Below are positions 7,491-58,400 of a stretch of DNA of 64,000 nucleotides, piece by piece; the stretch's first letter is position 1, and every line of letters begins with the position of its first letter. The notes beneath the pieces were generated by a model that was not told the origin of the DNA, did not search any database, and worked only from the letters and a program-made list of their open reading frames with translations. Both the position numbers and the translations under genes were made by a program. Source of the stretch: Dillenia suffruticosa (Eukaryota > Streptophyta > Magnoliopsida > Dilleniales > Dilleniaceae). The stretch is from contig JAVTVX010000010.1 in the NCBI GenBank assembly GCA_033439265.1, positions 17,267,490 through 17,331,489 of the forward strand, in the 5' to 3' direction.

Positions 7491-8130
7491 AGTCAGAACG
7501 GTAAGTAAGCGCGAAGAAAATCAAATAAAATTCTTTATTGAAAGAGAAATTCAATAATAATATTAAAAAATGACTACTATTGTTTTAGTTAGGATACACC
7601 TTAATTTTAGATTAAAAATTTTCTAATAACCTAATATTTTCTAAATACTTAAATAAAATAGAAAAAAATAATAAAAACTTAATAGAAACCCAAATAAAGA
7701 AGGAAAATTAATCAAAAACTAAAACTTTGAAACTTTTCAATTTCTTAAATGTTTTTGTATCGGAATCTCTTTCACATGTTGGGTATATTAGAGTAATATG
7801 AAACCATACATGCATGCCTTTATGCTTAAATGTCTTAAATGTCTCCCTTTTTTGTTCACCACCTCTCATACACTTCTCTTTCTTTCCTCTCCAACCCTTT
7901 TGAGTTTAATAGTAGTAAATTAGATCAAGTTCGATTGGTTTCAGGTTTGGCTCTGGTCTGTTTGCTAAACAAGTCAAGTTTGTCTGCGTACTTTATACTC
8001 ATTTATGAATTAAGACGTTCATGGCTTATTTGCAACTCTACATGCTCCCCTCATCTTGGCCTCTAATTACGAGACATTTTAGCAAAATCACTCTAAGCAT
8101 AACTATTTTTTCCTTTCTTTTTCCTAACTC
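7491..8130. repeat. AT-rich dispersed repeat, copy B'
   Basis: This tandem duplicate of about 7080-7490 shares 'ggtaagtaag', 'aaattctttattgaaagagaaattcaataataat' in pieces, 'cacatgttgggtatattagagtaatatgaaacca' in pieces, and 'catgcctttatgcttaaatg'. It continues further right than copy B, into a block ('ctaaacaagtcaagttt', 'tctaattacgagac') that is also seen in copy C. Confidence 0.75.
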
Positions 8131-10388: not shown

Positions 10389-10886
10389 GCAGGTAGTTGT
10401 CATTTTTCTTGTTTTTGAAATATAATTAACGGGAATATATCCTTTCTGCTGGCTTATTGAAGCAGTCAAGCAAATTTAAACATAAGATGCAAAAACAAGA
10501 TTATTCTCTAGGCTTGGAATTCTAATTTCAAGTACAGTCACTCTATCTTGTTTTCCCCCGCAGGTAGTTGTCATTGTTCTTCTTTTTGGAATATAACTAA
10601 TGGGAATACTGCCGGCTTATTGAAGCATTCTAGCAAATTTAAACATAAGACGCAAAAACAAGATGATCCTCTAGGCTTGGAATTCTAATTTCAAGTACAG
10701 TCACTCTATCTTGTTTTCCCCCCGCAGGTAGTTGTTATTGTTCTTCTTTTTGAAATATAACTAATGGGAATACTGCTGGCTTATTGAAGCATTCTAGCAA
10801 ATTTAAACATAAGACGCAAAAACAAGATTATCCTCTAGGCTTGGAATTCTAATTTCAAGTACAGTCACTCTATCTTGTTTTCCCCC
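10389..10886. repeat. Tandem repeat, three units of about 165 bp
   Basis: Units start at 10389, 10560 and 10724 (171, 164 and about 163 bases). Each begins with gcaggtagttgt and ends with 'tcactctatcttgttttccccc'-type sequence. The second and third are nearly identical; the first is more diverged and has a small insertion. The start of each unit resembles a splice acceptor followed by a donor (pyrimidines-gcag|gtag), so the unit may derive from intron DNA. Confidence 0.93.
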
Positions 10887-13939: not shown

Positions 13940-14170
13940 TTTAAAACAATACCGTTCAAAAATTATTTTAAAATCTAACACACACATATCATGACTCGAA
14001 ATCATGACATGTACTATTCATTGAACAATACTATGAACAGTATTAAGTCACGACATGTATTATTTATAGTACTGTTCAATAAATAGTACATGTCGTGACT
14101 TCAAATTACGACATGTGACGACATGTGAGTGTTAGATTTGAAAATATTTTTTAAACGGTATTATTTTAAA
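13940..14170. mobile_element. Foldback MITE, long terminal inverted repeats
   Basis: The left end 'tttaaaacaataccgttcaa...atctaacac' (13940-13981) is matched in inverse by 'gtgttagattt...aacggtattattttaaa' at about 14128-14170. Inside, 'catgacatgtactattcattgaac' in pieces pairs with 'gttcaataaatagtacatgtcgtgac' in pieces, so nearly the whole 231 bases folds into one hairpin. There is no coding sequence. The target-site duplication is obscured by AT-rich flanks, so the superfamily cannot be assigned. Confidence 0.85.
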
Positions 14171-19002: not shown

Positions 19003-20061
19003 TGTCAGTTTTGGTAATGGCCATTCAGAAAATATACCAGTCATCACCAAGGGAAGTGCTTTAGTGCTGCTTTATTTTACTCTTAAGTTGTTTGGTTCGG
19101 TTTTTAGCCGGGAGGGGTGCTACAAAACTCATCCTGCTTGCAAACATGTTCAATGGTCTCTGCTTGCATGGTCAAGGGCTCAACATTGCAATTATTGGCG
19201 TGTAAGTCTCCAATAAATCAAACAGACAACAAGAAAAAAAGATGGAAAACTTTGGGAAGGTTGTACTCTGGTTCTTGTAGAATCTAGCAAGCCTAAGCTA
19301 GTAGAGCTTTATCGATTTAGCACACTTGGCCACTTTGTAGGGTCTTATTTCATCTTCAAGCATTTTGAATTAAAAAAAAAGGGTATGGGGAACGGCGATC
19401 TCTTTGAAAGAACACTATTTTATACTTCAACGTAAATTCGCATTTATACTCCTCTGGATTGAGGTTTCAAGTCGCAGTTTCCTACTCATTCAAGCATCAG
19501 AAGTTGCTTATCTCTCTTTTCTCATTTTCGTAATAGGTTAAACGACTTATCGGGGTTTAAGTATAAACGTTTTCTGCTGCAACATGATTCTTGGCGTGCA
19601 AGACAATCACAGCTTTTCCCTCGAAACTGCTGCCTTCTCAGTTTTTAACCTAAGCAAAGATCCTATCAGAAGCACTCCGATGTCTTTTTCGTGTCGCAAG
19701 TTGCCCTTTCTGGGTTCTTTTTCTTTTTTCATCATGTAAAGGGATACCATCGGAACCAAGCTAGGCCACCATACTCGATCATTATCGAGTATTGGTCTTG
19801 GCATTTCTAAAGCTTGTTATGATCAATTCAATTCTTATAGGAATTTGAATCTTTTGAAATCAGGTAACAGGCACAGAGTAATTTGCCTTTAAATCGAACT
19901 TGCTCAGCTCTTACAGTAAAACACCATACGACATTTCAATACAAACATTGATAGTCAAATTCCTAAACAATTAGCAGCAACTAACCACACAGACCATTAA
20001 ACCCTAGACCTTAACAAAAACAAAACAGAACAAGCCTTTTAACAATCTGATGATGTTCTTC
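19003..20061. other. Intergenic
   Basis: No gene recognised. The part next to 20061 should hold the 3' UTR of the minus-strand DUF641 gene. Confidence 0.5.
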
Positions 20062-32100: not shown

Positions 32101-33239
32101 TACAGAAACACCACCATCACTTAGAGACATGTTCACATCTTGCTTCTTCTTTTCCCAGTGGCATACTCCTGATTTGGCCCCAAACTCGTTTTCCAGAAGA
32201 CTTTTCATGCCTACAAGTTTGAGTAAATTTCCAAGTCACAATAGAATTTGATTCCAAAACTAACCATCACCCATATTTTGCAAATATATACATTGCCAAC
32301 TATGGAATCCTCCCTGTTCACTGTTGCAGATACTTCCCTACTTTCTTGGTTGCAAATATCTTCTTATCCAAATTTGTTATCATAAATTTTTCGCCCAATC
32401 GCATCAATGATGACAGAATCAAAATAGCATTTGCTAAATTTGCAAAAATTTTCGAAAATAGACCAAACAATACCACTTCATACTAGAGAATAATATGCAA
32501 AATGAAAAAGTAGAAACTATTTTTAGCCCATCAAAATATCACAAAAATGATTAATAATTGCATCACCATCATTTTGTTATCATCATTGTGGTTCTCAACT
32601 TCTTTTCGATCACATCCAATTCCCCTGTTACATTACAATCGTACGAAGCATTGACACCTAATTTACTTTTCTATGCAATGTAAAGTAGCCTTATATGAAA
32701 TTACTTCAAAAGCACTTCAATTTCTGAAGTGTTGCTACAATCCCCACATCACCATTACAACCATTTAGCAACTATCAACCACTAGCACAGGTATAACTAC
32801 CAATTTTCTTGAATTATCAAATGTTATCTTACCCCAATATACATTTAATTGATTCTAGTAAATTGATCATGACTACGATTTTGAAGATTCCATATTCGAT
32901 CTAATTCCATCTGAGTTAATGAAGATAATTGGGACTCCCTAAAATTAATTATGACTCATTGTGTTTAGCATTTGATCCTATTGTGTTTATCTTTTAAGAT
33001 ATGACCAATTTTCAATAGCGTACTCTTTTACAGTGCGTTTTCAATATTAACTCTGTTGATTTATGTACTCATCCTAAGTTTATATCAAAGACCTCTGTTC
33101 GGGGCCAGAGAAGGCCTATCTATATTACTAGACACATGCCACGTGTTTCCTATAATGGCATCCATAACTCTCCTTTTTAATTCATATTACTTTCTCAATT
33201 GGCTCGGGTGCATGACAGTCTTCCCTTGTCATATCTCTT
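29161..33239. other. Long intergenic stretch, no gene recognised
   Basis: AT-rich sequence with scattered short frames (for example plus 30534-30839 and plus 31430-31708) that lack known motifs or splice logic. A B-box-like 'gagttcaaattct' near 29593 hints at a decayed SINE but has no matching A box or tail. Confidence 0.45.
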
Positions 33240-33910
33240 ATTTGCTAAGGTCCAAGATATGGCCTGCACAAATCATCATACGGGAACCGTTGAATCTTGC
33301 GATATTTAGTGTGGTATACACAATCCAAGATATCTTGACAAAGTTTGGTGTAGCTCTAAGATATAAAATAAATAAATAATAACAATAATATAAACAAATC
33401 TTTTTATGATCTAGAGTATCTAATCTTAATGACGAATAACAGGTGTAGATAGAATCAATAACTAGTTCTAATATACAAGCTGCCACATGCTAGGTGTCGA
33501 AAAAAGACTGTTAGTGATGGGTAACTCCTTACATCTCACACATTACACTTGGCATCATTGCATCAACAACTAAAATCATGATCTGGATTGGCATTTTTGC
33601 CACTAAAACCTATAGATGACCTTCATTATCGGTCCACATGATCATGATTCTAATTCATCAGCATCAATTTATTTATAGTGTTTCTCTCACTTATATCCAA
33701 ATATCATGTATTGAGCACATGTTTGTGTGTCTTCTCTCTTCCATTTTGATTAGGAGGCAAAGCCTTGTATTTATAACTCAGGCATAAAACACTTCTTTCA
33801 CATAGATTCGGAAAATGGGCTATATCAATAGGGGGTGAACCAATTTTGATCCTAACGGGGGTTTATTACGACCACTATGACACAACTGATGTTGAATTTA
33901 CAATAATTCA

Positions 33911-34140
33911 CTCTTACCTTTAGTGCCACCAACTTTGCAAGGTGCTAATAGAAAGGCTTGGCCATCACCATTGTCATCAGCAACAGAAGTATATTTGATA
34001 TAGTCATTCGAGACCTCACAAACTGAAGATGAATTCTCAATGCAAAACAAATTGTTCCTTGGATGCTACTATTTCCCACTTTAATACATAACGAGCCTCG
34101 GCAAGTAATAAAATGGGAAGCAATAACATCCAAGGAGGAA
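33911..34140. repeat. Exon 8 copy 1 with truncated inverted partner
   Basis: 33911-34090 is an exon 8 copy in the same orientation as the gene (minus): 'gctgatgacaatggtgatgg' and 'gcaaagttggtggcactaaa' on the minus strand. Just to the right, 'gggaagcaataacatccaag' at about 34111-34131 is the start of exon 8 in the opposite (plus) orientation, then similarity ends. Confidence 0.72.
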
Positions 34141-34830
34141 GATAAGGCGCTTCGTATTTGCTGATTTGAGTCAAAGCATCCAAGATAAGGCCTGCACAGA
34201 TCATTGTACGGGGAAACATTGTTGAATCATGCCAAGTTGAGAGTGACATACACATTTCGAAATACCTTAGATTGATCACTAAGATTTAAAATAAATAATA
34301 GTAATAACAATATAAATAAAACCTTTTTATGATCTAGAGTATCCAATCTTGCAAGAAAAGGATGAATAATAGCTTTAGAAGGATCTAAAAATTAGTCTTC
34401 AATACAAGCCACCACATGTTAAGTGTCAAAAAAACTGTTAATGACGGGTAACCCCTTGCATATATCACATAACACTTCGCATCGTTGCATCTACAATTAC
34501 AATCATGATTTGGATCCACATTTTTACCTCTAAAACCTATAGAAAAACTTCATCGAGGGTCTACAAGATCATGATTCTTATTCTTTTAACATCAATTCAT
34601 TTATAGTGTTTATCCATTTCACTTATATCCAAATATCATGTATTGCTCATGTGTTTGCATGTCTTCTCTCTTCCATTTTGAGCCTTGTGTATGTAAAAAC
34701 TTTGGCATATAAAACTTCACATAGACTCAAGAAAAAGGGCTATGATAACAGGGGCTGCAACCATTTTGGTTCCTAATGAGGTTTATTACGGCCGCTATGG
34801 CACAACTAATGTACAATTTAGAATAATTTG

Positions 34831-35226
34831 CTCTTACCTTTAGTTCCACCAACTTCGGGATTTGCAATTCACAAGGAATAAATAGAAGTGCTTGCCCCAT
34901 CATCATTGTCATCAGTAACAAAAGTAGACTTGATATAGTCATTTGACACCTTGTAAACTAAAGATGAAGCTTCAATTGGAAAATAATTGCTCCTTGAATG
35001 CTATTCCTTCCACCTTAAGAACATGATAAGCCTCACCAGGTTATCAAAAAGAAAGTAATAGCATGCAACAAGCAAGCGTTTTTTCCATTTGAAACTGCGC
35101 TTTGATTGAAAAGGTCTCTAATTGACTATATCGGGTCTACATCACGCACTGATGACCAAATGAAAGGGCAAGCGCTTCTAAAGACAGCTTACAAATTGCA
35201 ACTCCTAAAGTTGGTGACACTAAAGG
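34831..35226. repeat. Exon 8 copy 2, head-to-head inverted pair
   Basis: 34831-35010 is a minus-oriented exon 8 copy ('gatgacaatgatgatggggc' on the minus strand). 35050-35226 is a plus-oriented copy ('gggcaagcgcttcta' at about 35166, 'cctaaagttggtgacactaa' at about 35204). The exon starts face each other across a spacer of about 40 bases, so a transcript in either direction could fold into a long imperfect hairpin. Confidence 0.75.
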
Positions 35227-35439
35227 AAAATGTGAACTTTTCTAAAGTTAAACATAAATTACATGCTAAATTTATCGATAAATAGTATAATCTAGCAAAA
35301 CTCCAAGTGACTACTAAGCCATTTGTTGCGTCCTTCCTTGTGACATCACCACAACATACAAAGCGTGTCATTGAGTGGGTTCACATAGATTCAAAGGATG
35401 GGTTAAAACAATAGGGGCTGCAACCATTTTGGTCCTCAC

Positions 35440-35462
35440 CCCGCGGGGGGGGGGGGGTGGTG
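35440..35462. repeat. Poly(G) tract
   Basis: A run of about 13 G residues within a G-rich segment, inside the exon-copy array between copies 2 and 3. Confidence 0.9.
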
Positions 35463-35510
35463 TGGGGTTATAAAAACCGCTACAAGTACTGCTCAATTCA
35501 GAATAGTTCA

Positions 35511-35850
35511 ATTTTATTTTAGCGTCTCCAACTTCAACAGTTGCAATTTATGAGCTGTTGAAAGAAGTGCTTGCCCTATCATCACTGCAATGGCAAGTGT
35601 AGTAATTGTTCCTTGAATGCTATTACTTCCTACTTTAGGACATGATGAGCCTCACCAAGTTATGAAGTGGGAAGCAATAGTATGCATGAAGCAAGTGCTT
35701 TTTCAGATGAAACGCCATCTTTGATTTTCAAGATCTTGGATGACTCTAAATCTACTTCACCTTCTGATTACAATAATTAAGAGGCAACCCTTCTAATAGT
35801 AACTTACGCATTGCAACTCTTGAAGTTGTTGGTGCTAGAAATAAACATGA
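35511..35850. repeat. Exon 8 copy 3, head-to-head inverted pair
   Basis: 35511-35638 is a minus-oriented copy, more diverged and shortened. 35664-35850 is a plus-oriented copy starting 'gtgggaagcaatagtatgca' and running to 'cttgaagttgttggtgctag'. The spacer 'acatgatgagcctcaccaag' resembles the spacer of copy 2, so the inverted pair was probably formed once and then amplified. Confidence 0.72.
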
Positions 35851-35990
35851 ATTTTCTAAAATTTAACATCAACTATAGTACAATCCAGCAAAAGTCCTCA
35901 TGACTACTAAACTAATCTATCTATTACAGCTATCATCGCGACATCACCACGCATACAAAGTGTGTCAACGTGTGATTTCTGATCACCAAC

Positions 35991-38140: not shown

Positions 38141-41100
38141 CTATAGCTTCATACTTAGATCGTCCCCGGCTGAAGAAACCCCTCTCACAGATGAAGAATC
38201 TGCAAATCCAGAAGCTAATCCATCAGTGCTCGAATGGCTATTGGTCTCCTCAACTGGAAGAGAAAAATTCCAGTTTTGACATTTGAATCCTACTCACAGG
38301 TCTAATAAATAACAAGAAGTTTATTTTGATGCATATCAGATTATTGAAGTTGAGACTGAAAATTTAGGGCCTTGACATGAAAAAACTTCAAGGATGAGAA
38401 ATCCTAAGAGGTGAGAAAAGGAACAATACATAAACTAGTGAAAGAGTGCTCTCCAATCTCACTTCAACTCCTCTAAAAAATAATCTTGAAAAATCTCTAG
38501 AAGGGAAGAACTAATGATCCAATTTATGAAAACTCTAGCACTTAGCACCCTTCTAATACACTAATGAATAACCAAAAATGCACATCTTCAGGATGAAGGA
38601 GCATCTTTATATCCTCCAAAACCACCAAATTTTGCAAGAAACAATTCAGCAAGGCTTATAAGACAACTTTGGTCCTTATCAGAAACAGAAAATGGGTTAT
38701 TCCACATCTCTGGTGCAACAAGACAATGCGCACACATATGATCTCTGGTTTTGGATTTACCATAGCCCATGACACAATCATGTGGACAAATAGTTTTAGA
38801 AGGTCTCCTCTTTTATATCAAGTCATTCGTATTGATCTTGATACGCAACGGACACAAAGTAAAAGCCTTAACCTTGGCAGGAACATTTGCCTTCCACATA
38901 AAATTGGTTAATGAATCAGGATGATTTGGGCAAAGGGCAATAAGATTTGGAAGAAAGATTTGCAGAAAAAGGCACCCAAAGCATTGAGACTCCAAGTTCT
39001 AGTATCTGGAGGAAAGATTCATTTCCTCGTAAGAAGAAATTAAGGAAGAAAACTCTATAATCTCTCTACCATTAACATTTCTTAAAAAGTGAAAATTACA
39101 AGAGATAGGATGTCCCTCCCAAAGAAGTCTCTGACACAGATATTATGTCCTCAAGTCACATGTATATTTCTCATCAACTATTTTAAGTAAAAAATACATG
39201 GCCCATTTTTGAAAGTTTCCATTTACAACATGACTTTCTTACTGAAAATTCACCAAGTAATAACGTGTTGAATTGATTAGTGGAAGACATGTGGATATTC
39301 TAATTTTGCATCTTTGAAGAAAACAAGGATGCATGGAAAATTAACTCAATGCAAAGCCAAAAAAAGGAAATAAGTAAAGGTATCAAAGAAAAAATGAAAA
39401 TGCTGTTTTACTTCAGCATCTGGACCATGCAACCCAGCATTTTCTCAATGATAAATATGACATATAGCATAGCAGTCACCAGAAATTTTGCAAAATTGCA
39501 CCTCTTGTGCAAAAATATGGCACAACTAATGCTGAATTTTCAAAAAGTTCACTCTTACCTTTACTACCACCAACTTCAGCAATGGCAGTTTGAAGGTTGC
39601 ACATAGAAGCGCTTGCCCCATCATCATTGTCATCAGCGGGTGACATAGACTTGATGTCATCTGAGGCCTTGCAGACTGAATATGAAGTTTCCACAGGAAA
39701 AGGAGTTGCTCCTTGGATATTATTGCTTCCAACTTCAGAACCTGGAGGACTCTTTCTCTTCTTGATGCTCTGACCAATTAGAATTGCAGAACATTGACTA
39801 ACTTATCAAAGTTAAAAAGCAGTTGATGTCGAACTTTCCCTTGCAGGCTACTATGCTAAATATTAAAATTTGCCCATCTACTGTGATTCACTAGTACTCC
39901 TCATTACATTAGTTATCACTTTCATTTTTTATCTCAATGTTTGATAATATCCATCCCACTCTGTATACTAAATTTGGCATCGGGCAAAACCATGTTGGTA
40001 TAAATTAAGGGGCGTTTGGTAGAAAATGTTTGGGTTAATACCATGGGAATGAACATTTTGGATTCATACCTAAAAATCTAGGAATCCACAGAACCCAAAC
40101 AAATTGGTGGGTTTTGTTGGAAACCCATGTCTCATTCCCAAATAACTATTTACTCTCACACTTATCCAAAATTATCCAACCCTTTCCACTCTTACACTTC
40201 CTTGTCTTTTCACATTCTAAAAAAAATTACCTAAAATCTGAATCCTTGATTGGACAATATTTTTAGACCACTTTTTTTATTTGAAAAAAATAATAATCAA
40301 TTCAAAATTTTATAAAGTTAGATTTCAAATTTTAATAAGTGAAATATGATTAATTTTACAAGATAGATTTTAATGCAAATTCCCAAATCCTTTTCTAAAA
40401 TTTTGAGTTCATGACTTCATATATATAAAATAAAATAAAAAAACTAAAGAAGTGAAAAAATATAAAATTTTCATTATTAAGTTACTTTCTTCTTTTTTTT
40501 TTTTGAAAAGGATATAAAGTTTACTTAATAAACTCATATAATATTTATTTTTTTCAAGTGAAATTAATTTCATATAATAATTTAAAACAGTTTATTTTAA
40601 ATTATTTATAGTTTTTATTGTATATTAGAGTAAGGGTAAAATTAACAAATTGTTAATTCCCATTCTTAAAAAAACAACCAACCAAACTCTAGCCATGGTA
40701 ATGATACCCATTCCAGTGTACTGAACCAAATTGATGAATTGGAATGATTTTGTTCATTCCGAATCCAGAGGATATGATTCTGATTCCGATTCCGATTCCC
40801 AGGACTGCACTAAATGCCCCCTTAGCCTCTTTTTTCCTATGTAAAATTTCCAACCAAGAACACTAAGTGCTGGTATTTTTCGCAGAGGTCACCTACTCTG
40901 CTTTCATATGGTCAAATCTTAGTTATAATGTTTCTCAAAATGACATGCATGAAACTGAGTTCATTTTGAACTGACCAGCACAGAAGTTGAGCAAAAACCA
41001 TCTCAAATGTTGGTTTCTACATTCTGGAATCAGATTTCTTAAACCATTTGTACTATACTCACACTATGCATCAGAATCAATCTGATCTGGTAAGTCATTC

Positions 41101-44100
41101 CTCTTCAAACAACCAAAACTCATTTACTAAGCTAGAGTTTATTATATGGCCTGTGGACAGATTTTAATTGCACTTATTACCACTAAGCTCATTACACTTT
41201 CTCCCCAAGATGCTCCTTAAGGACCTTGGTCCAAGAGTTGTCCAAGAAAACTTTTCAAAGCCAAGAAGGTCTACGATGTTCTATAAAATAGAAAAAGAGT
41301 ATAGTTATGCACATATAAGCAACTTGTCATATACACATAAATTTCATTATTTGTTTTGCATACAAAAAATATTATCAAATGTCCACAATCACAAGCATGA
41401 CAAGGGGAAGGTTTAAACCATTATTCTTACTTTACACTAACCACTTTTAACAGTTAAGGGATTTTCACAACTTCTGAGATCAACACTTCATACCTCTACT
41501 ACAATTTCATTGCACAAGATATGAAAAATGTGATGGATATTACCTTAGACAAAATAGTGTCTTTCAGTTCCAACTGGCTTTCTTCCATGGCACAGAGCAT
41601 TTGAAGCATCTGATCCTCAAACCCAGGAGACAGTGTGTCAATTCCCTACAACTCCATCAGTTAGATTAGGAATTAGATTGAAGCCCTAATGCTACCAAAG
41701 TTGTGTTTCAGTCATGTGCTAATTTAATGCAAATGACAGCAATTGTCTCCAGCCTTTCATGCATAAGCCACATTAGCACCTATCTCACATAAGAAGATGC
41801 AGATGGATATGAAGATGTAACAGCATATTTTTATTGACCCCCCTGAAGTTTAAATCACTATAGAATCATTACCTCAGCAGATGGCATACTTGCCATTTTC
41901 AAAACTTCTTCAGCTGAAGAACCTCTGTCTTGAGGAAGCAAATCCGCAAGGTTTCTCAGAGGCTTCAGTGATCCTGTTCCACATACCAGCAGCTCCTTTT
42001 GGCTTTCAGATGATAGACAGCCTTCATTTTCCCTCATCACATCCTGTAACAGGAAAAGTCAGATTAGACTTGCAGCAAATTCTCCAGTCAATGAGCATAC
42101 CATCTCAATCTACTTACAGATGGAGCCCAACCCAGAGCAGACAATGGAATGATGTTCTCTGCAGTCAGTCCTGTAGATAATAAGATAAAGCACGTCCCAA
42201 CTTTAGAATAATGCTCAATGATATGGTATGATTATAATACTAACTCCCACAGGCGTACTCTAGACAAAATCAGGAACAAACAAGAAGCAATATCTCTTTG
42301 ACAAGAACAAGAGACAGCACCAACTACCAAACCTTGCACTCGCCACTCTTATCTTTGTTAAATCCTTTGCGAGGCTTGGAATTGTCTCACGTTATGCAGG
42401 TTCTTACCACCCCCCCTTTGGTTAATATTCACAGTCCAATCATGAAAAGATACCAAGGAGACGGGTAGTCCACTCAGTAAATAAGCATGGGAAAGGACTT
42501 TGACCACCTAATATTCACTCTAAGAAAATTAACCAATCTCCTAATGTTCACTGTAAGAAAAATAACAAATCACAGAAAAACTTTTTTGTGGATTTCAATC
42601 TTATGTCAGTGTTGATGGGCTTTATGTTTTGATGGAAAATAGTTAAGTATCCCAATTTTTCTTTAATGGGATCGGAGAAGATTAATGTCTTGCCATTTAC
42701 TCCCCCAAAAAAAAAAACTATTTTCATTTACAAACATTTTCCAAATTAGTCAAATTGTTGAAACATGGCTGATCGTTCAAGAGCGTTGAGACATAATACC
42801 AGAACCAGAATTGTCCTGTTGATGCAAAGTATATTGTGCATTCATTGAGTATGTCCCTGGGAAAATGTCCCCATGTGTGTTGATTACTTGTTCACTTTCA
42901 GCCTGATACAAACATCACAACAAATTATAGCTCTTAAAGAGAACATTGCAAGGTACAAGCTGATCAAGTAATTACCAAAATGGAAGGCTTGTTGGTTTGC
43001 TGGTGAAGGTTCTGATGCCGTGCACGGTACATTTCATAAAAGGTTAGCCACCACTCATGCAAGAAACCATCTGGGACATCAATCGCTGAAGAGCCAGAAA
43101 AGAAAGCACAATGCCCCCCCACCAAAAAAAAACAACACCATTTTAATCACTTGTAACATAAATATGACAACCATCATTAAACTAATGTGTCTGTTTCAAT
43201 TAGACAACTTTGAGTAGTAAGAAAAGCCAAATACACACCAAGCAACAACACTACAACAAAAGGAAAAGTCTTATGGTTACTTTGACTACCTCAGTCATCA
43301 TAAAAGTAGTAAGAAAAACAAAATACACACCAAGTAACAATGGTTACTTTGACTACCTCAGTCATCATAAAAGTAGTAAGAAAAACAAAACATACACCAA
43401 GTAACAACATCAACAACAACAAAAGGAAAAGTCATGTGGTTACTTTGACTACCTCAACAGCAATTCAACTTCTCCATTCTTGTCATCATAAAAACACATG
43501 ATAAGAATTTCAGGCACGATATAGTGTGCCGGGACATATTGAATAGGCTGGGGGATTCCGAGGAATACAAAAAGCCTCTGTTTTTTTTTTTTCAAGATTT
43601 GGCGAGCATCTGGAATAACCAGTGTAATTTAAGATTAGCATTTACGGAACATTAAAATGGAATGAAAAATTTAATAATACCAATTCATCACGCAGATGGC
43701 AAATCAATAAATCCATCATACGAAAATTGTACAGGTTTAATGTTACATTTTAAAGCATAAACCGGCATAAGATACATCTTGAATGCCATCTAGATGAATT
43801 AAGGGACCCACAAAAAATGGAAAACCAAAATGGAGTAAAATAAGGGGAATCCGCCCATCCAAGATTCAAATAAAAAAACTTGTAACAGAGCAGTAATTAC
43901 ATTTAAAAAATTAAAAAAAAAAATACAAAGAAAATCCTCAAGCAATTCCCAACAAGAATTGTGAGAGAGAGAGAGAGAGAGAGAGAGGAAAAGTCACCGA
44001 GAGGAGATTTTTCGTCGATATCGACACCGGCTTCTTGCCTAAAAATCTCAGCCGTTTGGTGACAGTTCTTTTTCATCAAGTAGTCGTAGATATATCTTTC

Positions 44101-44138
44101 AAGCCTACAACGAAACAACGCAGATTCAACATCCATCC

Positions 44139-44170
<32 letters not shown>

Positions 44171-44232
44171 TTCAGAGATCAAAAGGAAGAAACTCACATG
44201 ACCCGATTATCCCAACCAATGGGGCTCGACAT
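38141..44232 (-). CDS. LisH-domain transcription co-regulator-like protein
   Basis: Nine exons give 334 residues with consistent phases: 44198-44232, 43998-44104, 42976-43085, 42800-42902, 42118-42170, 41873-42043, 41544-41645, 39559-39769 and 38141-38253. The LisH motif is at about residues 13-45 ('LERYIYDYLMKKNCHQTAEI'), followed by 'DVPDGFLHEWWLTFYEMY' (50-67). This is the LisH plus F-x-x-E-W-W arrangement of LEUNIG- and SSDP-type co-regulators, where it serves dimerisation and partner binding. No WD40 repeats follow, so it is not LEUNIG itself. Later parts include a Glu/Gln-rich segment 'QMLQMLCAMEESQLELKD', a basic patch 'IKKRKSPP' from about 229 (possible nuclear signal), and a Ser-rich end. 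Exon 2 is bracketed by (CT)n tracts. Intron 7 holds a Harbinger-like element. Degenerate copies of exon 8 lie downstream. Function is inferred from the LisH region only. Confidence 0.88.
40008..40821. mobile_element. PIF/Harbinger-like non-autonomous element
   Basis: The left end 'aggggcgtttggt' and right end 'actaaatgccccc' form imperfect terminal inverted repeats of about 13 bases, flanked by TTA at 40005-40007 and 40822-40824. The GGGGCxTTTGGT-type end with a TTA duplication is the Harbinger/Tourist pattern. No transposase is encoded. It sits in intron 7 of the LisH gene, away from the splice sites. Confidence 0.72.
43962..43988. repeat. (GA)n tract in LisH gene intron 2
   Basis: (CT)n on the coding strand, beginning only about 10 bases after the exon 2 donor. 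Confidence 0.95.
44144..44170. repeat. (GA)n tract in LisH gene intron 1
   Basis: (CT)n on the coding strand, about 40 bases before the exon 2 acceptor in a 93-base intron. Confidence 0.95.
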
Positions 44233-46457: not shown

Positions 46458-49400
46458 TTATTGTACTCCCGTAATGTACAAGCTAGCTGCAAAAACGATG
46501 TCCCTTTTTATGGCATTTGAAGCGGCTTCCATTTTCTTGTAAAGGGCAGAGTTTCCCATAATTGCCGCAGCACTCCTGAATTCACGACATGTTTCATCGA
46601 GTCTGACGATAGTTCTCACAATCAAGCCTTCAGGAACATCGGTGAGCTCACAGATATCTGCAAAAGGAGTGCCCTGCCATAAAGAAGATGAAAAGATTAT
46701 ATGCAATGACATAAATTGAAGATGGTTTAACAAATATATTGTGTATAATAGGAACCTTTGCCCATTCGTAGACCACTTCAACAAGTCCAAATTTGAGATT
46801 TTCTTGAGCATATTCTTCAGGAGTTATTGGTAGTTTAAACTGCACCTGAAGCTCGCCAAGTCTGATTGCTGTATTATACAATCTACACAGGATTTACACA
46901 TCAGAACTAGAATCAAGATGACAAAAAAGGAAGTAACAAAATTGGGATAAAACAATTAGATATGAATTGCATTAGGTTTTCTGCAATCAATTTTCTTGGT
47001 GGGCTTGCCAAAATATACTCGAGGACGGTAAGTTAAAGGACCCGAGTGTTCTACGACGATAATCTGCAACCTTATAACCAAGTACAAAACCAGCATTTGC
47101 CCGGTTAGATATCCTCCTCCCAAAAGTCTCTCCCCCAATTTTCTTCTTTTCTGCAAATATAAGCATTTTGAGACCAAAAGTTGCATTACCTTCGAATCAC
47201 TCGGACTAGTAGTTTCCTATATAAAACTCATTTGGTCAATAGACCAACAAAACCATTCTCCTAAAACTTCTATTGGAAGTGCAGCAAGGGTAAAACAAAT
47301 TATGAGCAACATGCCATGTCTTGCCACCTCAACCAACAAATTTTCATTTGAACTTACCATTCACCCTTTCACTGCTCTCTCTATTTTGTGTGCACACCTA
47401 TGCACAAGACATCATCACTTTATTTCATGTATAAATTGGTTACAAGGTTCAGTTCAGATCTTTGAAAACCTCAGCTTGAGATAATGGAGCAAAAAAACTT
47501 GCGACCTAAAGTCCAAGATTTTGTCCACTGTAGATAATCGGAGGTTCTTTATTATATTGCAGCTACTATACTCTGAATGATAAGACAACCTTCAAGAGTT
47601 TGAAAATAGATCTCCCTTTTATGAAAGATGAGAAACATTAAATTACCTTTGTCTGGCCAGTGCAAGCCTTGGAGTAAGAGAGGGCTCAGAAGTATTCCTC
47701 TGTTGAAACACAAAGGCTGACATTAATGCCACTGCCTCTTCAGGTTCGAGATCATCAAGCTGATTCTCGAACAGACACTCTGTGCAAATCAATTCCTCCC
47801 CAGAATTCATCTCACAAGCAACACGACCTTTGATCTGAACGACGAGGTCATCATCAATGCAACCAATTTCCTTCAAAATATCAATCTGCAACGTACAGCT
47901 GAAGTCTTTCAGATGATTTAATTTTATCATGGAATAGCCCGACAATAAGTTACAACAAGAAATTTGATCATTATGAAGACACAACCTTTAAAAGGAAAGA
48001 AAGATGAAGGAAACATACCCGGCCTTGAAACTCTGGCATCTGTTGAAGTGCTTCATCTGACATTTGAAATTTCAAAGCATTTACTTCGTCTTTGTGCCTT
48101 TTTAACTCTGTAGCTACTTTTATGTGCTCCTCGAATCTTACACAACCATGGCATTTGTTTTCTGTCATCTTTTGCAATAGACTGTTCCATTTGTTGTATG
48201 CGTCAACAAGATTTATATCTTTTACCTTCAAATCTGCAATAAATGTACAATAATGAATCTCAATATGATACTGATAGCAAGAAAAACTCTTCTTTTCTGG
48301 ACCAAAAAGTACTCCAGAAACCAAAGGAAACATATACCAATATAACCAACACTGTTTAGCTCCATGGAAACTGAATACCTTTCCGTGGCAAAGATCTCTA
48401 ACGATAATATTGAACTAGCACAACATAAATAGATCAATCTAGACATGTATAACTCTGCAATAACCCCAAAAATACTATAATGTATATATATTTGAATTTA
48501 TGGTGCAATCAATTTATTCGTTGAAGCTACCGTTCTTCAATAAAGCAAGATGCTGTCTCAAAAGACAAACCACACTCCGGATTTCCAAGGCTAATACTTC
48601 CTTCAAGATTACAATGCTTAATGGACTAAATCAGGTGGAACAAGGTGTGTGGGCAGCTAAAATAACGAATTCGAGACTTAATCACCACCGGCAAAGGGGG
48701 CAGAATCATGTATGGGCAACTCATCAGCTGCTCAAATAAAGCGACGGCAGAGTTTAAGTTACCCCTGCATAAGGGCAAGAATTTGCAGAACTGTTGGTTC
48801 CAATTTCATGTGTCAAAATGTAATATCATCATTTTTGTGCTAAATGGGTCAATAAACAACCGATTATCATACCAAGCAATTAAAGATACCAATTGTGCTA
48901 TTTACATAATTTTCTGTGGTAGTTATGGCCCATGAAAAAAAAAAAAAAAAAAGAAAAGAAAAATGACCTTCCTATTTGCCAGTTAACAAGTGTTTCTTCA
49001 CAAATGAAAAGGAAAAGAAAAACAGTGATAATTGCATCATCCGAACCCTCAATCCAAGAAAGAAGCCACTTTAATTTACAAAGTCTTTTGGGTGGCTGAT
49101 ACACGTCAGGTCAATCACCAGTAAATTTTGAAGCAATACCACTCTGTGAAGTTACCAATCTCCCCATATTGCCAAACTCCAATCTCAGATGATGACTTAA
49201 GAATCTAAGCTATTTAATAGGGCGTGGATAACAAGGGAGTAAGAACACTCAACAATTAATTTGGTATCACTGTAAAATTTGAGCATGCAACATATAAGGG
49301 TACACCATACAGTGTATAATTTTTCAGTTAAACAGCTAACAGCAGGGGATTTCTATTAAAAAGCAGACCAACTGATAAGTCATGACTACAAGATGAATAG

Positions 49401-52400
49401 AACTTTTGGAAAATCCTCTTCATATAACATTTCCAACAACAGACATCAAGCTATTAAGTGCCGTTTGGATTGCTGGTGGGATCAGAATTAGAATCATTCT
49501 CATTCTCATTCAAATTCCTGGGAATGGGCATCAGAAAATCATTCCACTCATACCATCCATATTGTTTGGAGTTGTCCAGAATGAAAGCTGTTTTTGAGAA
49601 TGATTCCTATTCCTAGAGTTTAGTAATGTTTGGAATGGAATTTGAGAATGAAATATTAAACTATTTTATAATTTTATATTTAAAATATATTCACTTAAAC
49701 TTTGTAATTTTACACTTAAAACAAAACTACATTAGATTATACCTAATTACAATGAGTTTAACTCATAAAATTAATTTAACATTCCGAAACACATTTCTAT
49801 CTATTATGATTTTTATTAGTTTAAATTATGAAATTAATTTAACCATATTTAAAATATCAAATACTACTTTTACTAATTAGGATGTCTCTGACAAGGTCCA
49901 TTGCCAGCAGTGAGTAGACAGAAACATGTTTTGGATTCATGAACTTGTGAGGAGATAAGAACATATTGCAGATTCATGTTGTCATGAAATAATTTCTAGT
50001 ACACTAGACTATTTTTCGTCAGTCAAACCATGAAAGTGCTTTCCCCAAGTCACTTTCACAAGCAAACAGAGCCTAATAAGAAAAGAAAACACATTAAACA
50101 ACATAAAACATGCATCCCTAAAATGCACCAAAGGCATGACGCAGTAAGAAAAGAGAGGAACAAGCTTGACCAGACACATAAAGCAAATATAATCAAAATA
50201 TTAAAATTGTGTACTGGCCATACCTTTCAATGGGTCAAGTGCTGGAGGGTACTTATTTTTATCAGATTTTAGATCCAATATTTGTTGAACTGTCTTGGAG
50301 TAAGCCACGCTGCTGTCATCTTCCAAAAGTCCTGCTATGTCAACCTTTATTTTGCAGTTGCGGATGCTGAGGAACTCTTTATTATCAATTCCTCTAACCT
50401 CGTAGTTGACTCCAGCAGCGGTACCCGAATGAGGTAAGTTTATGTTGATGTTACCTGATCCCTTCCGGTTAGTGCTAGACGCATAATACTCCTCATCCAA
50501 GGGACGCTTAGATTTAGGGATCATGAAGTATCCTTGAGCAAAACCAGCACTTTGTTTAGCTTGAAAACTACCACTAGTTGGTGAATTTTGCACAGCTGAT
50601 GGTGAATCAGGCAACAATACCAAAACAATGTATTGCTTGACACTAGTTGAAGGTGCTTTTACAACAATTCCAAACAAGTGATCCTGGGCCTGCAAATTAT
50701 CAATAAAACCTTTAGCAAGCATGACAATATTATCATAATCAAATTAAGTTTCCAGCTAGCAAATGACTTTTATATTGTCATATATAGAGTCACATGGCAA
50801 ATGGGAACAAGATTTTAACAATCCACAACATCGAGAACTAATCTTCCATTCCAAAACAGGGTGGGGCCCTAGGTCTCCAGTAAGCAATTAACTTGAGCAA
50901 AATACATATCTTAAAATGTCTTGAAATATACATAATGGATAAACAGCCAGAGCAGCATGGTGTAGAATATACTTTGCAGCACATGGGAGCAAAATGTATC
51001 CCATGATGCTCCATCATGAATTCAATTGAAGCATTGGAATAATCACTCTGCAGGGTACAGGAAGCTTGATGAGTTAAAATTGGGCAACAAAATTTATTAG
51101 CAGTGAAATTACTGCTACTGCAGAAAAGCGCAATTCTGTTGTCCTGAGCACTACTATGGTAATTAGTGTGTTATTGTTATGAGAACATTCTTTCTCCAAT
51201 ATATCATATCAGAGCAGCGACTGTGGATGATCTCGCATCCCATTCACAAAAAGCACACCAAGCTCCAGAAGAAGGTAACATAGCATTAACCACCCAAAAC
51301 CAAAAAGTTCCATATAAATTTGGAATGTTCACAAAATCACATGGCAGCACCAAAACTATTTTAGCATTTGAAATAAAGCCCAGCATCATTAATTATATGC
51401 AGTCGATATATTTCAACAACATAAACCAACTGCAATAAGATCTCACCCTTTCTCCTTTCACAATTACAACCCTCCCTGGTGTAAGGTACTGTTGAGCTGC
51501 CTGAGATTGCACAACCTTCTCTAAGATCTCGTCCCTATATTTTTCAGCTTCTGAGTACATCTCGTAGTATTCCTCAATTGCAGGTTCACCTTTCATACAT
51601 CTACATGCCAATACCAAGACATGATGAATAACGACCAAAGATAACAGAGCTTAATTGATTGTGCAATATCAATTAAAAATAAATTAGCTCCATCAAAGAG
51701 TAGTATGCTCCACGCACACACCGACACACACATTTCAACAAGGCACTTACTCAATATCTGTTTTAGGCTGGGAAAGCATCATCTTTAGAAGATGATGTTT
51801 TTCTGGAATATTTTTTTGAGCATGAAATTCAGCAAAACTTCTTTTCAACATATCCTCAATCTGCAGGTCAAGTCCAAGTCAACTATGGATATTGAATTTG
51901 AGCAGCACTTGTCAAACTTTTGGGAAAGAAAATAACGGAAAAATAATTGCCTAAACATGGCCAGTGCAGTAGCAGTACAAAATTGAGAATATTGTGTTTT
52001 AGCATCAATATCCACTGTACCATATACATTTATCATAAATCTCAATAAAGCAATCATAGTTGAGGCAGCAGCAGCATTCCACAGCCTCTAGTGAAATCCC
52101 AAGCTCCACCATACAAGATAATGATGGATGTACAATGAGCTGGATACTGAATTGTGAATGACATTCAATAGTCTAGTTTTATTTCACCACAATATCTAAT
52201 TGGCATAGTAAGGACAGGGTAATGGCCTTCCTCTACCCCAGAAAGAAAGATTTGGAAAACCTTTAGCTTCTTATCATCATTTATACTCTTTTTGGGGTTT
52301 TGGCTGCAATCGTACTAAAGTGCCATGGGAAAGAGCCGAAGTTGGTATCCTAAGTTGCATCGTGTTTTTGAAAATTACACAAAACATGAGCAGAAACATG

Positions 52401-55400
52401 TTCTTGCACTCTATGAAAGTTTTTATGCTGCAACAGAAATTCAATGCTTTCTTAAAACAATACACTACCTTCAATTCTTCTACACGAAGGAGATGCAGGA
52501 TCATTATATAGGTGAGTCGAAATTGAGACTCAAGCTTGGTGGCACTACCAACTATGACACGCTTCAGATCCCTCTCATCTGGGATTTCATCACGACACAT
52601 AACAATAACAGTGCCAATTTTGTCAAGTCCTCTTCTGCCAGCACGACCAGCCATCTGTGTGTATTCTCCGGGAAGCAACTGTCTGAATTCCTTGCCATCG
52701 AACTTCCTTAGAGTATCAAAAACAACCTGCAGGGCATCCCCCCCCCAAAAAAAAACTCTTATATCTTAAAAATAAAAATAATAAAAATAATAAATAATTA
52801 ATAAAAGCTCAAGAAAGTAATGAAAAGGTTTCTGACTGCATCTTCTCAATTTAATGTTTCTTCAACTTCACATCTTTTTCACATCTACTCCAAGATCTTG
52901 TAGACATTATTTTGCAACTACTATAAACCACACCTATTATGTAATGATTAATATGAAAGAAACTACCATAAAGTAACAGCACCATCACATCCATTAACCT
53001 GATCCATAACCTATTTACTGAACCAACTGATGTCCACATCTAATTAAGGTTTCGCAAGCTGGTTAAAATGGCCATGTCCTAATTATGAGCTGAGCTGTGT
53101 ACCACTAATATCAAATGGCTGTATCTTCATGGAAAACTTTATGGGGGAGCAATGAACATGCTACCCCTGAGGAAAGCTACAATTCACTTCTTATCATAGT
53201 AATGACTAGAGCCATTGACAATCTGTGCTTATGGGATCAGGGAGTGTTAGCCAAGGACACCCAAGCACGTTGACAAGGTTGATTCCCCCAGATTCACTTA
53301 CTCATCGTTGCTGCCACCCAGCCTCTAATTACGCCACTTATTTCATCCAACATTGCTATCACCATCTGCTTGTAAGTGCCATTCCGTAGATTGCAACAAC
53401 TCTCGATCTCAAATAGGAAAAATCATACATACGGACACACACTTGACCATAGAACTGGTAGCATGAATTTGTCTGAATACAGACATTTGCTGGCATGAAA
53501 ATAATGACTTGAAGCAAGACCATGAAATATAACTCACCGTCCTAGCTGGGGCATTAACTCCCATTGCAAATGTCTCAGTTGAAAACAGTACCTACAAAAA
53601 TGAGGGAAAAAAAAACATGGGCTGTCATAGCTTCTCAAATAACCTTATTTTATTCAATTTCACTCAAAAAGGCAATATACAACAATCATGGAAGACTGAA
53701 AATTTTTAAATGGAAAATAAAGATACCTTAATTACACCACGGCAGAAGAGCATTTCAACAACTTCCTTGACAATTGGGAGCAACCCAGCATGATGAACAC
53801 CTATTCCTCTATGGAGAAGGCTTTGCACTCTTACAATCTGTAAAATGCATTAATATGACACATCTGAGTCCAGAAGTTAATTTGAAGCAGATCAAACAAG
53901 TTACTAATCCATCAAACCTGTGGTAGGTTCCTGTCAGATCCCTTTAATCGTGAAAATGCTTTGTCACAGAAAAGACGAATCTCACTTTTCTCAGAACTAC
54001 TTGTAAGGTCTGTTCCCGGCATATTATCAGCGGATTTATCACAACGATTCTTTGAGAAACAAAATATAACCACCTAAGATTCCGAAATAAACAATGTTTG
54101 AGTTATTACAAGCATGACAAAAATTCCTTTGCAAGAACATTTTAAGTCTCAAATGGATATGTAAAACAAAAAGAGATAGATGCATCTTGCAAGCACTAAA
54201 TGCAAATAGAGTTACAAAAGTCCACTGATCCATTAACTTAATATGAAATGAATGTTGGCAATAACATAAGAATTCAGTATTTTCATGAAGCTGTCTCCAT
54301 ATTACTGTGTATGTAAGAATAAAAAATTCCTCACTTACAGGTAAGAGTGAATTCTTTGAAAGCTTCTTTATAAGTTGCAACCACAAAGAAGCTTCTGATT
54401 TCCTTAACCCCCAATTACCTTGACTGCCGCCATTACTTTGATTTCCCCCAACAGTCCCACGGAAGTTCCCTAAATTTTGAAAACCAGAATTTTTATTCTG
54501 TTTGCTTTGACCAAAACTTTCACGTTTCTGAGTTCGAGCCCCACTGTGGGCTGATGATGACCCAGCATATGATCCTTTACCACTTCCACCTGCACTGGGA
54601 TTCTTTTTATTGTATGAATCTTTAGCAGCTTTCAATCCCTGTGAAAGGAAAGTTTCACTTTCACAGATTTTGTACAATTCGCCTGAAAAAAAAAGGAAGT
54701 GCTCCAAGGGAACTGGCCTTTTTGTAGTCCTGTCAACAGAAACATGTCAAACGGTACAAAAGCTAAGTAAAAATCTAACAGCAAATTATAAGCATCTCTG
54801 CTACATCTTTCACTTTAAATGAGACACCCAACATTAAAGAACAAGAAGTATGGATAGACAGAATTCAGGCTTTAGTTCTTACAAGGAAATTATCTCGTGA
54901 ATTTCTACTTACCCAGTAACATGGATTTTCTTTTGCTTTGTCCGACCAATCCAGTCTGCAAATTCTAATGTGTTTGGCACCTAGAAAAAGAGCATAGAAA
55001 AGTTTATACTGCAGACTGCCTTTCACAAAAGTACCAAACCATATTACTCAATACGTGAATATTCAAAATAATCAAAACTTGCAACACATAAGTTCTATAT
55101 CAGGCAAATAACCATTGAATGGATGCCTTCCAGAAGGCTGCTAAAAGAAGAAGACTTTCACTTGCCAGTCAAAGGAACAGCAGAACGAGTGATTGAGAAA
55201 TCTCACCACCCAAGTGTTAATGCCATAAAAATTAAGAGGGCTTAACAGCCACTAATCAGCCTAGTTTAACTTGTGAGACCAGATATGTCAAATCTGAGGG
55301 AAGTGGAGAATTTTGTACAAAATAACTTAAATTCAAGGAGTTGGAAGCTGAATATGAAGGATAGGATAGAGCATTCACAATACATTCATAATGATAGTAA

Positions 55401-58400
55401 AAATTCAAAACAAAATGAGCATCTAAAATATAAATCTTCACACAACACAACATACCGTGGCTGAAAGAAGGACAATATTGATATGTCTTGGAAGCATGAT
55501 AATAACTTCTTCCCAAACGACACCCCTTTCAGCATCATTGACATAGTGCACTTCATCAAATATAACCTACAAAAACAAGAAAACAAAAAAAATCTCCAGA
55601 TCAACTCAAAGCTGATTTATTGGTTAAAAGAAAATACAGAACCTAATCAAAGTAATACGATAGACAAATAGGACAGCAAATGAGCCTCATTACCCATTCA
55701 ATATCTCGTATAATGTCAGCACCTCTATAGAGCATTGACCTTAATATCTCTGTGGTCATGATTAGACATGAAGCATCTGGTCTCAAGCTAACATCACCAG
55801 TGAGAAGGCCAACATCAAACTTCCCACAAAAATCTCTATATTTCTGGTTGCTGATGGTTTTAATTGGAGCAGTATACACCGCTCTAGTACAATGCTGCAT
55901 AAGTATCATTAAACATATATTAGCAGCAAAATCTGTATGACTATCACATAATGAGATTTCATATGAGACTCGCTATAGTTTCTAGATTCAACTACTGAGA
56001 CACAACGTTCCAAACGTGTAGCCAAGCATGAAAAAATTTCTTACTTTTGAAGCCAAAGCAAATGCATATTCCGCAACAACTGTCTTTCCAGCTGATGTGT
56101 GAGCTGCCACAAAAACAGAGTCTCCCTTTTCAAGATAATAGATTGCCTGTATATATCAAAGGACCAGAGATGTTTAAGTTCATTTGCTCGGTAGATAACA
56201 CCGCTTTGCCAGTTTCTGTTTTCAAGATAATACGTAACCCCGCTTCCACTAGAAGAAATCTTAATCATTTTCTTTTATATCAAAAAAAAAAAAAACTTAA
56301 TCATTTATGGAGCAAATGACAAGTAGCAAAAGGGTTAATCTAAGTTGCATACATAATATTTGAGCTCCCTGACTAATTAAAATGGGCAAGTTGCAAAAAG
56401 ACTAAACATAAATTGTGCTGAAAAATATACCTGCTTTTGGAACCTGTCCAACTCAAATGGAAACTCTAAAGCCATGTCAGGAACCAGGTCATGGAAGTGA
56501 TTTGCTACGTCTTCACTTTCACTATCTCCACAGACAACCCAGGCCTATAGAAACCAATTAAGATATTCAACCCATCATCAACAAAATACCATACAAGATA
56601 AACATGACACTTATCACCTCCTAGGTAGTTCACTGGACTACATAACAAACTATTACCTCTGGTTGCTGCTGTCCACCATCATCACTGGTTTTGTCGGACA
56701 TTAATGATGGGACTCCAGATTCAACAAACAAAAGTTTATCTAGTGCTGATGATTCAGAGTCTCCAGCCTTAACAGAGGCATCCAACTCATCCGCTTGATC
56801 TTCCAGCTTAATAGACACTGATTCTGTTGCATTACCTTTAGAGAGAATGACGGCATTACATTGGCCAAAAGAAAATCATCAGAGACTACTCACAAAAACA
56901 AAATATAAAATAGATTAAAATAAAACAAAGAGAGTATGATAAGATTCTCTAAGAGATGAAATCACTGATTGTGGGATTAAAAAACCATAACAGCAGCAAT
57001 ATGAATACTAGCGAAGCAAGGCTGTCTGAATTAAAGCAGTACCAAGTGCGAGAATAAAATTCAAAATGCAGTTTAAGTCCAACAAAATATTAATAATGAA
57101 GGCAGCAACAATATCGGACAATGAATGAAATAGGCATTTACACATGTGAAAGAGGAAAAAAAATGTCATTAGTTTCGGATTCACATGGTGGATCTATGCT
57201 ATAGAGACGGGGTAGATGAAGGGTGAAAACATGGCATGCAAACAAACGATATAGATTTAAGCCAGAAGTTTTCACACGATAAGCACAATCTGAGCCAGAA
57301 TATAACTCGAAGTTTACATCACCCATACCATCTTCCTTGGGCTCTGCAAACACATCATCTTCCCAAGCTTTCTTGAATAAGTCATCAAAACGCACAGACA
57401 ATTCAGTCTGCGTATAAAGTAGCAGAGAAATCAATGGCGTGCATGATACTCATTCAGTCACCCCAAAAAAAAAAAAAATTCAGGAACAAGCATCATACAC
57501 TTTTCAAGGTTCAAATGAACGTATAATCCACAACAAACGCTTTCACTCGTTTAAATAGTCAAACACACCAAATAATTCAAGCGGCTTACCAGCTTTTCAG
57601 TGGATGAGTTCTTTGGCAACATTTGTTCCTCATAAACATTCCAAGAGCATGAAAAGCCCTTCAATAAACAAGGCCAAGAAGATTAAGAAAAGCGCAAAAC
57701 ACATTTCATTGTGCAAAACAATACAAATTATAATTCTTCTGATAATTTATATTAGAGAAACCATAAACTTCAATAAAATTATGTGTAAAATTTCCACAGA
57801 ATTTCCTGTTAAAAAGTGAAAATAAAGATTAAGAAAAATGGGTACCTTGAAATCCCCAAGATCCATTCCTTGCTTAAAACTTGGAGGCACGGTCTGAACA
57901 TGACCACCATCAAGAATTTCACTAACCCATTCACCATTAAGTACTCCTTCAGGAAGAATCCTTTCCAGAGACTGAGACTCATCCAAGCCTCCAGGACGAA
58001 AAGGCCGGTTATTAATACTTCCGCGAACAAAATCTTTACTTGATCCAGCTGCACGAGGCAAAGAACCAGAATCTTGAGTTCCCCCCATTAGATCTGATAC
58101 CTCTACCTGAGACATTAAATGAGCCAATCTCCATGGGAATATCATGAGAAAAAGGATGATGATGTCAACAATAACATTAACAAAATATAGTTAATATTCG
58201 TAGAATATTGAAGATATTCGACATTTTCAGAAGTGCCCTTTCTAATAGAACATATACTAGCCAAAAGGCACTTAGCAAGATCTTAGTTTCTTCTCCCCAG
58301 CAACTAGGAGAATCTGCTTGAAGAAATCGACAAATTAACTTTCAAAACACCTCATACCTGTACGGACTTCGGTTCCCATTTTCCTTCCACTAATGCACGC

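Follow-up and report, generated by a model that had tools for sequence, protein, structure and literature searches.

Downstream of a LisH gene in Dillenia suffruticosa, three copies of the eighth exon of that gene are each followed by an inverted copy, and the resulting structure is very probably an old array of inverted gene fragments in neutral decay, with a latent capacity for hairpin formation. The window analyzed here is the whole 64,000-nt stretch C10:17267490-17331489 (C10 being contig JAVTVX010000010.1), and the genome searched comprised 596 Mb in 37 contigs. We demonstrate below the anatomy of the array, the equal substitution rates of its parts, its foldability and its complementarity to the parent exon.

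The parent exon and the anatomy of the array

The LisH motif is encoded by the minus strand near 44.1 kb, where the ORF at 43903-44178 gave a PF08513 match (E = 9.5e-07). Exon 8 of this gene, a number taken over from the original prediction, occupies positions 39559-39769 of the minus strand and is bordered by splice sites (acceptor CAG/AGC, donor AAAG/GTAAGAG). Between the window and its paralog in the segmental duplicate described below, the exon shows 19 differences in 204 nt, and the estimates of dN and dS (0.039 and 0.36 by NG86, 0.037 and 0.41 by YN00, 0.045 and 0.32 by LWL85), with dN/dS near 0.1, indicate that it is under purifying selection. By our visual reading, a terminal LisH exon follows exon 8 in matching phase and ends at 38141, so that the array units lie about 2.3-4.9 kb past the LisH stop codon. 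Five differences between the LisH copies are crowded into the 10 bases at 39716-39725 of an otherwise conserved exon 8, a stretch that faces the unit 1 hairpin arm.

Self-BLAST and repeat finding identified three exon-8 copies in the parent orientation (d arms), with an inverted copy (i arm) behind each. These similarities are far above chance and confirm the original prediction of three exon-8 copies downstream of the LisH gene: unit 2 matches exon 8 at E = 3e-41, and the two arms of unit 2 match each other at E = 5e-64. Unit 1 (33229-34141, plus strand) consists of a lead of about 650 bp, the direct arm d1 (33876-34086, plus; matching the exon-8 region in 162/216 aligned columns) and an inverted arm, i1 (34087-34141, minus; 33/53 columns), which is cut at the tandem-unit boundary. 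A copy with a truncated partner had been described at 33911-34140, and we observed the partner as the short right arm of a pair that spans 33876-34141. Unit 2, of which self-BLAST aligned the part at 34152-35076 (plus), carries d2 (34796-35021, plus; 170/230 columns) and i2 (35022-35326, minus; 161/247 columns). In unit 3, d3 (35482-35640, plus; 111/167 columns) has an internal gap relative to the exon, whose middle part is missing from this left arm in both copies of the segment, and i3 (35641-35870, minus; 157/237 columns) has lost its inner part in the duplicate. Of the two full inverted pairs proposed earlier, the one at 34831-35226 stands, with borders refined to 34796-35326, and the one at 35511-35850 does not stand as a full pair, its borders now being 35482-35870. 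Likewise, the proposed tandem period of about 925 bp holds for units 1 and 2, which show 74% identity in an alignment of 913 with 925 bp (33229-34141 with 34152-35076), and fails for unit 3, which follows at 619-679 bp.

As read from our alignments, the palindrome centers lie near 34086, 35021 and 35640, with next to no spacer between the arms; all arms derive from a single protein-coding gene and lie in opposite orientations, as in an inverted-duplication locus. The homology to exon 8 extends through the donor-side intron to about 39516 (to 39460 in one arm), which shows that genomic DNA was copied rather than mRNA, and the d arms retain the donor site and intron flank and stop short of the acceptor. 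Elsewhere in the window, tandem repeats are present at 7094-7881 (393 bp; 2 copies, 91% matches) and 10389-10886 (164 bp; 3 copies, 92%).

The segmental duplicate and the order of events

Positions 29680-64000 (about 30-64 kb) have a diverged inverted duplicate on the same contig, at C10:19471112-19514192, 2.2 Mb away; comparison with 50 kb of that region showed it to be collinear with the window, with gaps. The duplicate contains a second copy of exon 8 (C10:19486861-19487066, 91% match), and it carries the array in the same order, with pieces near 19495-19496 kb and the counterpart of 33.2-36.0 kb at C10:19494.4-19497.0 kb, lacking the inner part of unit 3 and having an extra partial copy of the lead at C10:19509782-19510246. 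Genome searches were made with exon 8, 33240-34150 and 34960-35990 as the three queries; the program omits very common words and scores the best candidates only, and the counts are accordingly lower bounds. Exon 8 gave at least 7 matches, array pieces included, at the two LisH loci and the arrays beside them, and 34960-35990 gave at least 12, all at the window locus and its duplicate. For 33240-34150 there were at least 13 matches, 8 of them on C10 at those two loci; the other 5 lay on different contigs and were 35-49 bp long.

Other features of the duplicated segment may be recorded here. The stretch at about 29.7-33.7 kb of the window is present twice in the duplicate, at about 19496-19501 and 19509-19514 kb. 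A helicase-like gene extends, as judged by eye, over about 46458-58650 of the minus strand, with a DSHCT domain in the ORF at 46458-46823, the sole ORF tested; in the duplicate, the helicase-like region has no match to 48.9-53.2, 54.4-55.9 and 57.4-59.5 kb of the window, and this copy therefore looks incomplete. The ORF at 61934-62287 encodes an STL11 N-terminal domain (PF21369), and the stretch surrounding it is 89% identical to the duplicate.

The two copies of the array allowed us to compare rates of change, which were measured as identity between copies over 33.0-37.4 kb in aligned columns only. The arms were identical at 790 of 942 positions (83.9%), the rest of the array, or spacer, at 1332/1584 (84.1%) and the flanks at 1388/1635 (84.9%), and the array minus its centers did not differ from the flanks (Fisher p = 0.93). 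Since arms, spacer and flanks are alike, there is no sign of constraint on the arms. The centers of units 1 and 2 change faster (146/194, or 75%, identical, against 1976/2332 for all other array columns; p = 0.001, in a test chosen after the divergence profile had been inspected), and the third center, that of unit 3, is deleted in the duplicate. The longest run identical in both copies within 33.0-37.4 kb is 49 nt, at 35188-35236 in i2.

In an unrooted IQ-TREE phylogeny of 14 arm and exon sequences, the d arms (support 85), the i arms (79) and the two exons (99) each formed a group of their own. Window and duplicate sequences paired for d2 (100), d3 (100), i2 (89) and i3 (82) and did not pair for d1 and i1; FastTree recovered the same groups, with a support of just 0.59 for the i3 pair. 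Identity between d and i arms is 58-77% across the array and, in units 2 and 3, 58-75%, well under that of the same arm between copies (d1 175/211, d2 199/231, i2 207/248, d3 87/102, i3 93/106; 83-88%). For the unit 1 center, d and i agree at 28/38 and 34/44 positions, about as well as i1 does between copies (37/51), so that identity alone cannot date this center before the duplication. Presence of the array in the duplicate, together with the tree, indicates that the palindromes predate the segmental duplication. A sequence of inversion, then amplification, then segmental duplication fits these data and is supported by the tree. The original prediction had described a candidate small-RNA locus in formation, and this part of it is contradicted by the tree, by the array's being common to both segments and by arms that diverge at the rate of the flanks.

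We propose that a copy of exon 8 and its flanking intron arose downstream of the gene in the form of a palindrome with hardly any spacer, presumably through template switching or replication of a hairpin-capped end, and that the palindrome and its lead would next have been amplified to three units. The 30-64 kb segment would later have been duplicated in inverted orientation, after which arms, spacer and flanks would have drifted at a single rate and the centers would have changed faster or been lost. A read-through transcript, if one was ever made, would form a hairpin RNA with stretches antisense to exon 8.

Folding, complementarity and co-evolution of arms and exon

Folding of both inverted pairs in silico had been set beforehand as a test of the original prediction, and it was passed, clearly by unit 2 and less so by unit 3. 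With 60 dinucleotide shuffles per sequence, z-scores for the plus and minus strands were -11.6/-14.1 for unit 2, -4.9/-7.0 for unit 3 and -2.5/-3.7 for unit 1. The outcome carries little weight, since an inverted repeat in partial decay will fold in any case, used or unused. The unit 2 hairpin is weaker in the duplicate than in the window (-135.7/-144.6 vs -167.2/-186.0 kcal/mol).

At the center of unit 1, the minus strand of 34056-34136 is predicted to form an 81-nt MIRNA-shaped hairpin with 26 of 27 stem positions paired, and its counterpart in the duplicate, also on the minus strand in window orientation, likewise has 26/27 paired. We also folded 120-nt windows in steps of 20 on either strand and kept those with at least 25/27 paired; the 6388 folds of the 64-kb window left 2 clusters and the 4988 folds of the 50-kb duplicate another 2, and in each copy one of the clusters is the unit 1 center. 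The other clusters were at 19506320-19506439 in the duplicate and at 13981-14120 in the window; the latter is a strong palindrome, foldable on both strands, and is perhaps a MITE. The MIRNA criteria in Table 1 of PMC12594335 include no more than 5 mismatches in the miRNA/star duplex, asymmetric bulges that do not exceed 3 nt, a 2-nt 3' overhang, reads for miRNA and star, and 75% precision; a precursor of at most 300 nt enters as a warning in the tool of that paper. We scored the first 19 nt of each duplex and counted G:U as paired. On the minus strand of the unit 1 center 55 windows of 21 nt passed the duplex criterion, 30 with at most 2 unpaired positions (41 and 23 in the duplicate), and on the plus strand 54 passed, 0 with at most 2 unpaired (38 and 6 in the duplicate). 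The duplex criterion is not selective, as numerous windows in other parts of the array also pass it. As to length, unit 1 at 81 nt is within the precursor limit, and units 2 and 3 as folded measure 467 and 391 nt. The earlier proposal that an array transcript could fold thus holds for the predicted structures, in the form of stable hairpins and miRNA-like duplex windows. No Rfam family matched the window above its gathering score.

By 21-mer and exact-run searches, a 26-nt stretch at 34890-34915 (plus) was found to be a perfect antisense match to exon 8 in each of the two LisH copies; alignment by eye placed 22 nt of i1, at 34116-34137 (minus), antisense to exon 8 with one difference (G:U on the mRNA). 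Using our own implementation of a position-weighted mismatch score with a cut-off of 4 or less, we counted 67 array 21-mers (36 plus, 31 minus) against the window exon, a number that includes whatever matches descent alone would give. The window array had 58 such 21-mers against the duplicate exon, and the duplicate array had 61 against its own exon and 54 against that of the window. In d2 of the window and d1 of the duplicate, the runs that match exon 8 exactly, of 26 and 28 nt, exceeded position shuffles (p = 0.008 and p = 0.0015, respectively); these two were the best among 12 tests of arms, a set that includes one artifact. The artifact was a p of 0.0 for i1 of the duplicate, which we dropped because a stray piece had been aligned far upstream. 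Compared by eye over 22 nt, i1 differs from its own neighbor's exon and from that of the other copy by 1 vs 5 and by 4 vs 5 positions.

None of the co-evolution tests was significant. Pairs altered on both sides numbered 4 over five centers, a count that 38/500 shuffles reached; the covariation score was reached by 34/500, the number of paired cells by 46/500 and that of further pair types by 175/500. When arms were swapped between copies, the observed stability was reached at the unit 1 center by 86/600 permutations on the minus strand, where native arms out-folded swapped ones by a summed 11.5 kcal/mol, and by 146/600 on the plus strand; at the unit 2 center by 444/600 (minus) and 302/600 (plus); and for the whole of unit 2 by 93/200 (minus) and 60/200 (plus). 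Unpermuted swaps favored the native arms, with native-minus-swapped differences, for plus and minus strands, of -5.4/-13.5 kcal/mol in the whole of unit 1 and -11.3/-19.8 kcal/mol in unit 3, the latter confounded by the deletion in the duplicate. Columns paired in both, one and neither copy were 27, 6 and 2 of 35 at the unit 1 center, 157, 28 and 44 of 229 in unit 2, and 59, 17 and 11 of 87 in unit 3. Site patterns shared between exon and arms, over six arms, were 4 concordant and 2 discordant (i arms 4:0, d arms 0:2), both informative i1 sites being concordant with the exon. The unit 1 center leans toward the direction expected from selection or conversion.

Two further lines were set aside. 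Neutral evolution simulated between the two extant hairpins suggested very strong apparent retention at the unit 1 center (on the minus strand 0/300 as stable in both directions, on the plus strand 0 and 2/300) and in unit 2, the unit 3 rows being distorted by the deletion. We rejected this as evidence because stationarity is assumed, whereas a palindrome begins perfect and decays, and each descendant should then pair better than a sequence derived by mutating the other. Wobble pairs among the arm differences, counted as minus:plus RNA, were 4:2, 26:15 and 16:18 in window units 1-3 and 3:1, 32:26 and 6:4 in those of the duplicate; this lean to the minus strand, in 5/6 units, was not taken as a signal, as composition or a strand bias in mutation would produce it equally well.

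Alternative explanations and known systems

The array might instead be a putative active hairpin small-RNA locus, born of the inverted duplication, in which a folded transcript of either strand would be cut by Dicer-like enzymes into products that silence the LisH pair. The strong fold of unit 2, the MIRNA-shaped stem of unit 1 in both copies, the 67 21-mers (those due to descent alone included) and the slightly better fit of i1 to its own neighbor's exon would agree with this; yet the arms are without constraint relative to the flanks, covariation (38/500) and arm swaps (86/600) fall short of significance, the exon-arm patterns are 4 concordant to 2 discordant, and the inner unit 3 hairpin is lost from the duplicate. 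We consider such a locus unlikely. Several observations do count against simple decay: the unit 1 center keeps its 26/27 stem in both copies despite belonging to the fastest-changing class, its 27/35 columns paired in both copies compare with 157/229 in unit 2, and there are the exact 26- and 28-nt exon-8 runs and the 49-nt identical run in i2. That the 34056-34136 minus-strand hairpin and its counterpart are paralogous proto-MIRNA hairpins drifting with their targets, through selection or through conversion between arm and exon, seems to us still more doubtful. The between-copy rates and the co-evolution tests gave no clear sign of selection for a hairpin, and we infer that function is absent.

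Capture of exon 8 by a mobile element can be given very little weight. Captured gene fragments and inverted arms are typical of Pack-MULE, Helitron and foldback MITE elements, but the matches in our genome searches are confined to the locus and its duplicate, the five lead matches of 35-49 bp being the only dispersed ones, and the scattered copies of a gene-capturing transposon were not found. Comparably improbable is an array that came first and from which exon 8 was recruited: the unrooted tree of exon, d and i sequences leaves the direction unfixed, but the exon is under purifying selection and has both splice sites, and the d arms end before the acceptor. Neutral decay of an old inverted gene-fragment array remains our preferred reading. 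The case is also a caution: an inverted copy that has decayed in part inherits its foldability and its antisense matches, both of which are poor evidence that it functions.

In the standard model, new plant MIRNA genes are born by inverted duplication; what becomes of inverted copies that never turn into genes has, to our knowledge, received less attention. The locus and its segmental duplicate offer a paired example, in which arms change at the spacer rate, two centers change fastest and one hairpin is MIRNA-shaped. In the literature searched, without the species name, we found no report of this array and nothing related that joins LisH, exon and inverted duplication. The inverted-duplication route is well described (PMC1790633, PMC3237417). 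According to PMC1790633, some of the resulting miRNAs have drifted so far that they no longer interact with the parental family, and a new repeat is taken to sit near a functional promoter. As described in both papers (PMC1790633, PMC3237417), young loci of the MIR161/MIR163 type resemble the present one in their inverted gene-piece copies, arm similarity beyond the target site and foldback potential. The present locus differs from that type in having three palindromes in a row and unconstrained arms and in being older than a segmental duplication.

The CHS repeats of soybean are inverted and nearly identical. According to PMC6710647, CHS gene repeats at the soybean I locus give rise to endogenous RNAi, and that locus is like ours in placing repeated gene sequence, able to yield silencing RNA, beside segmental duplications; its repeats are gene-length with a demonstrated seed-coat effect, whereas ours are diverged exon fragments. 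Template-switch mutations, as treated in PMC8794818, create and mend hairpins and copy briefly. A reverse-complement copy beside its source and a center that changes and yet stays paired are common to such mutations (PMC8794818) and to this array, which differs from them in that its arms in units 2 and 3 run to about 160-300 nt and that no single event was identified.
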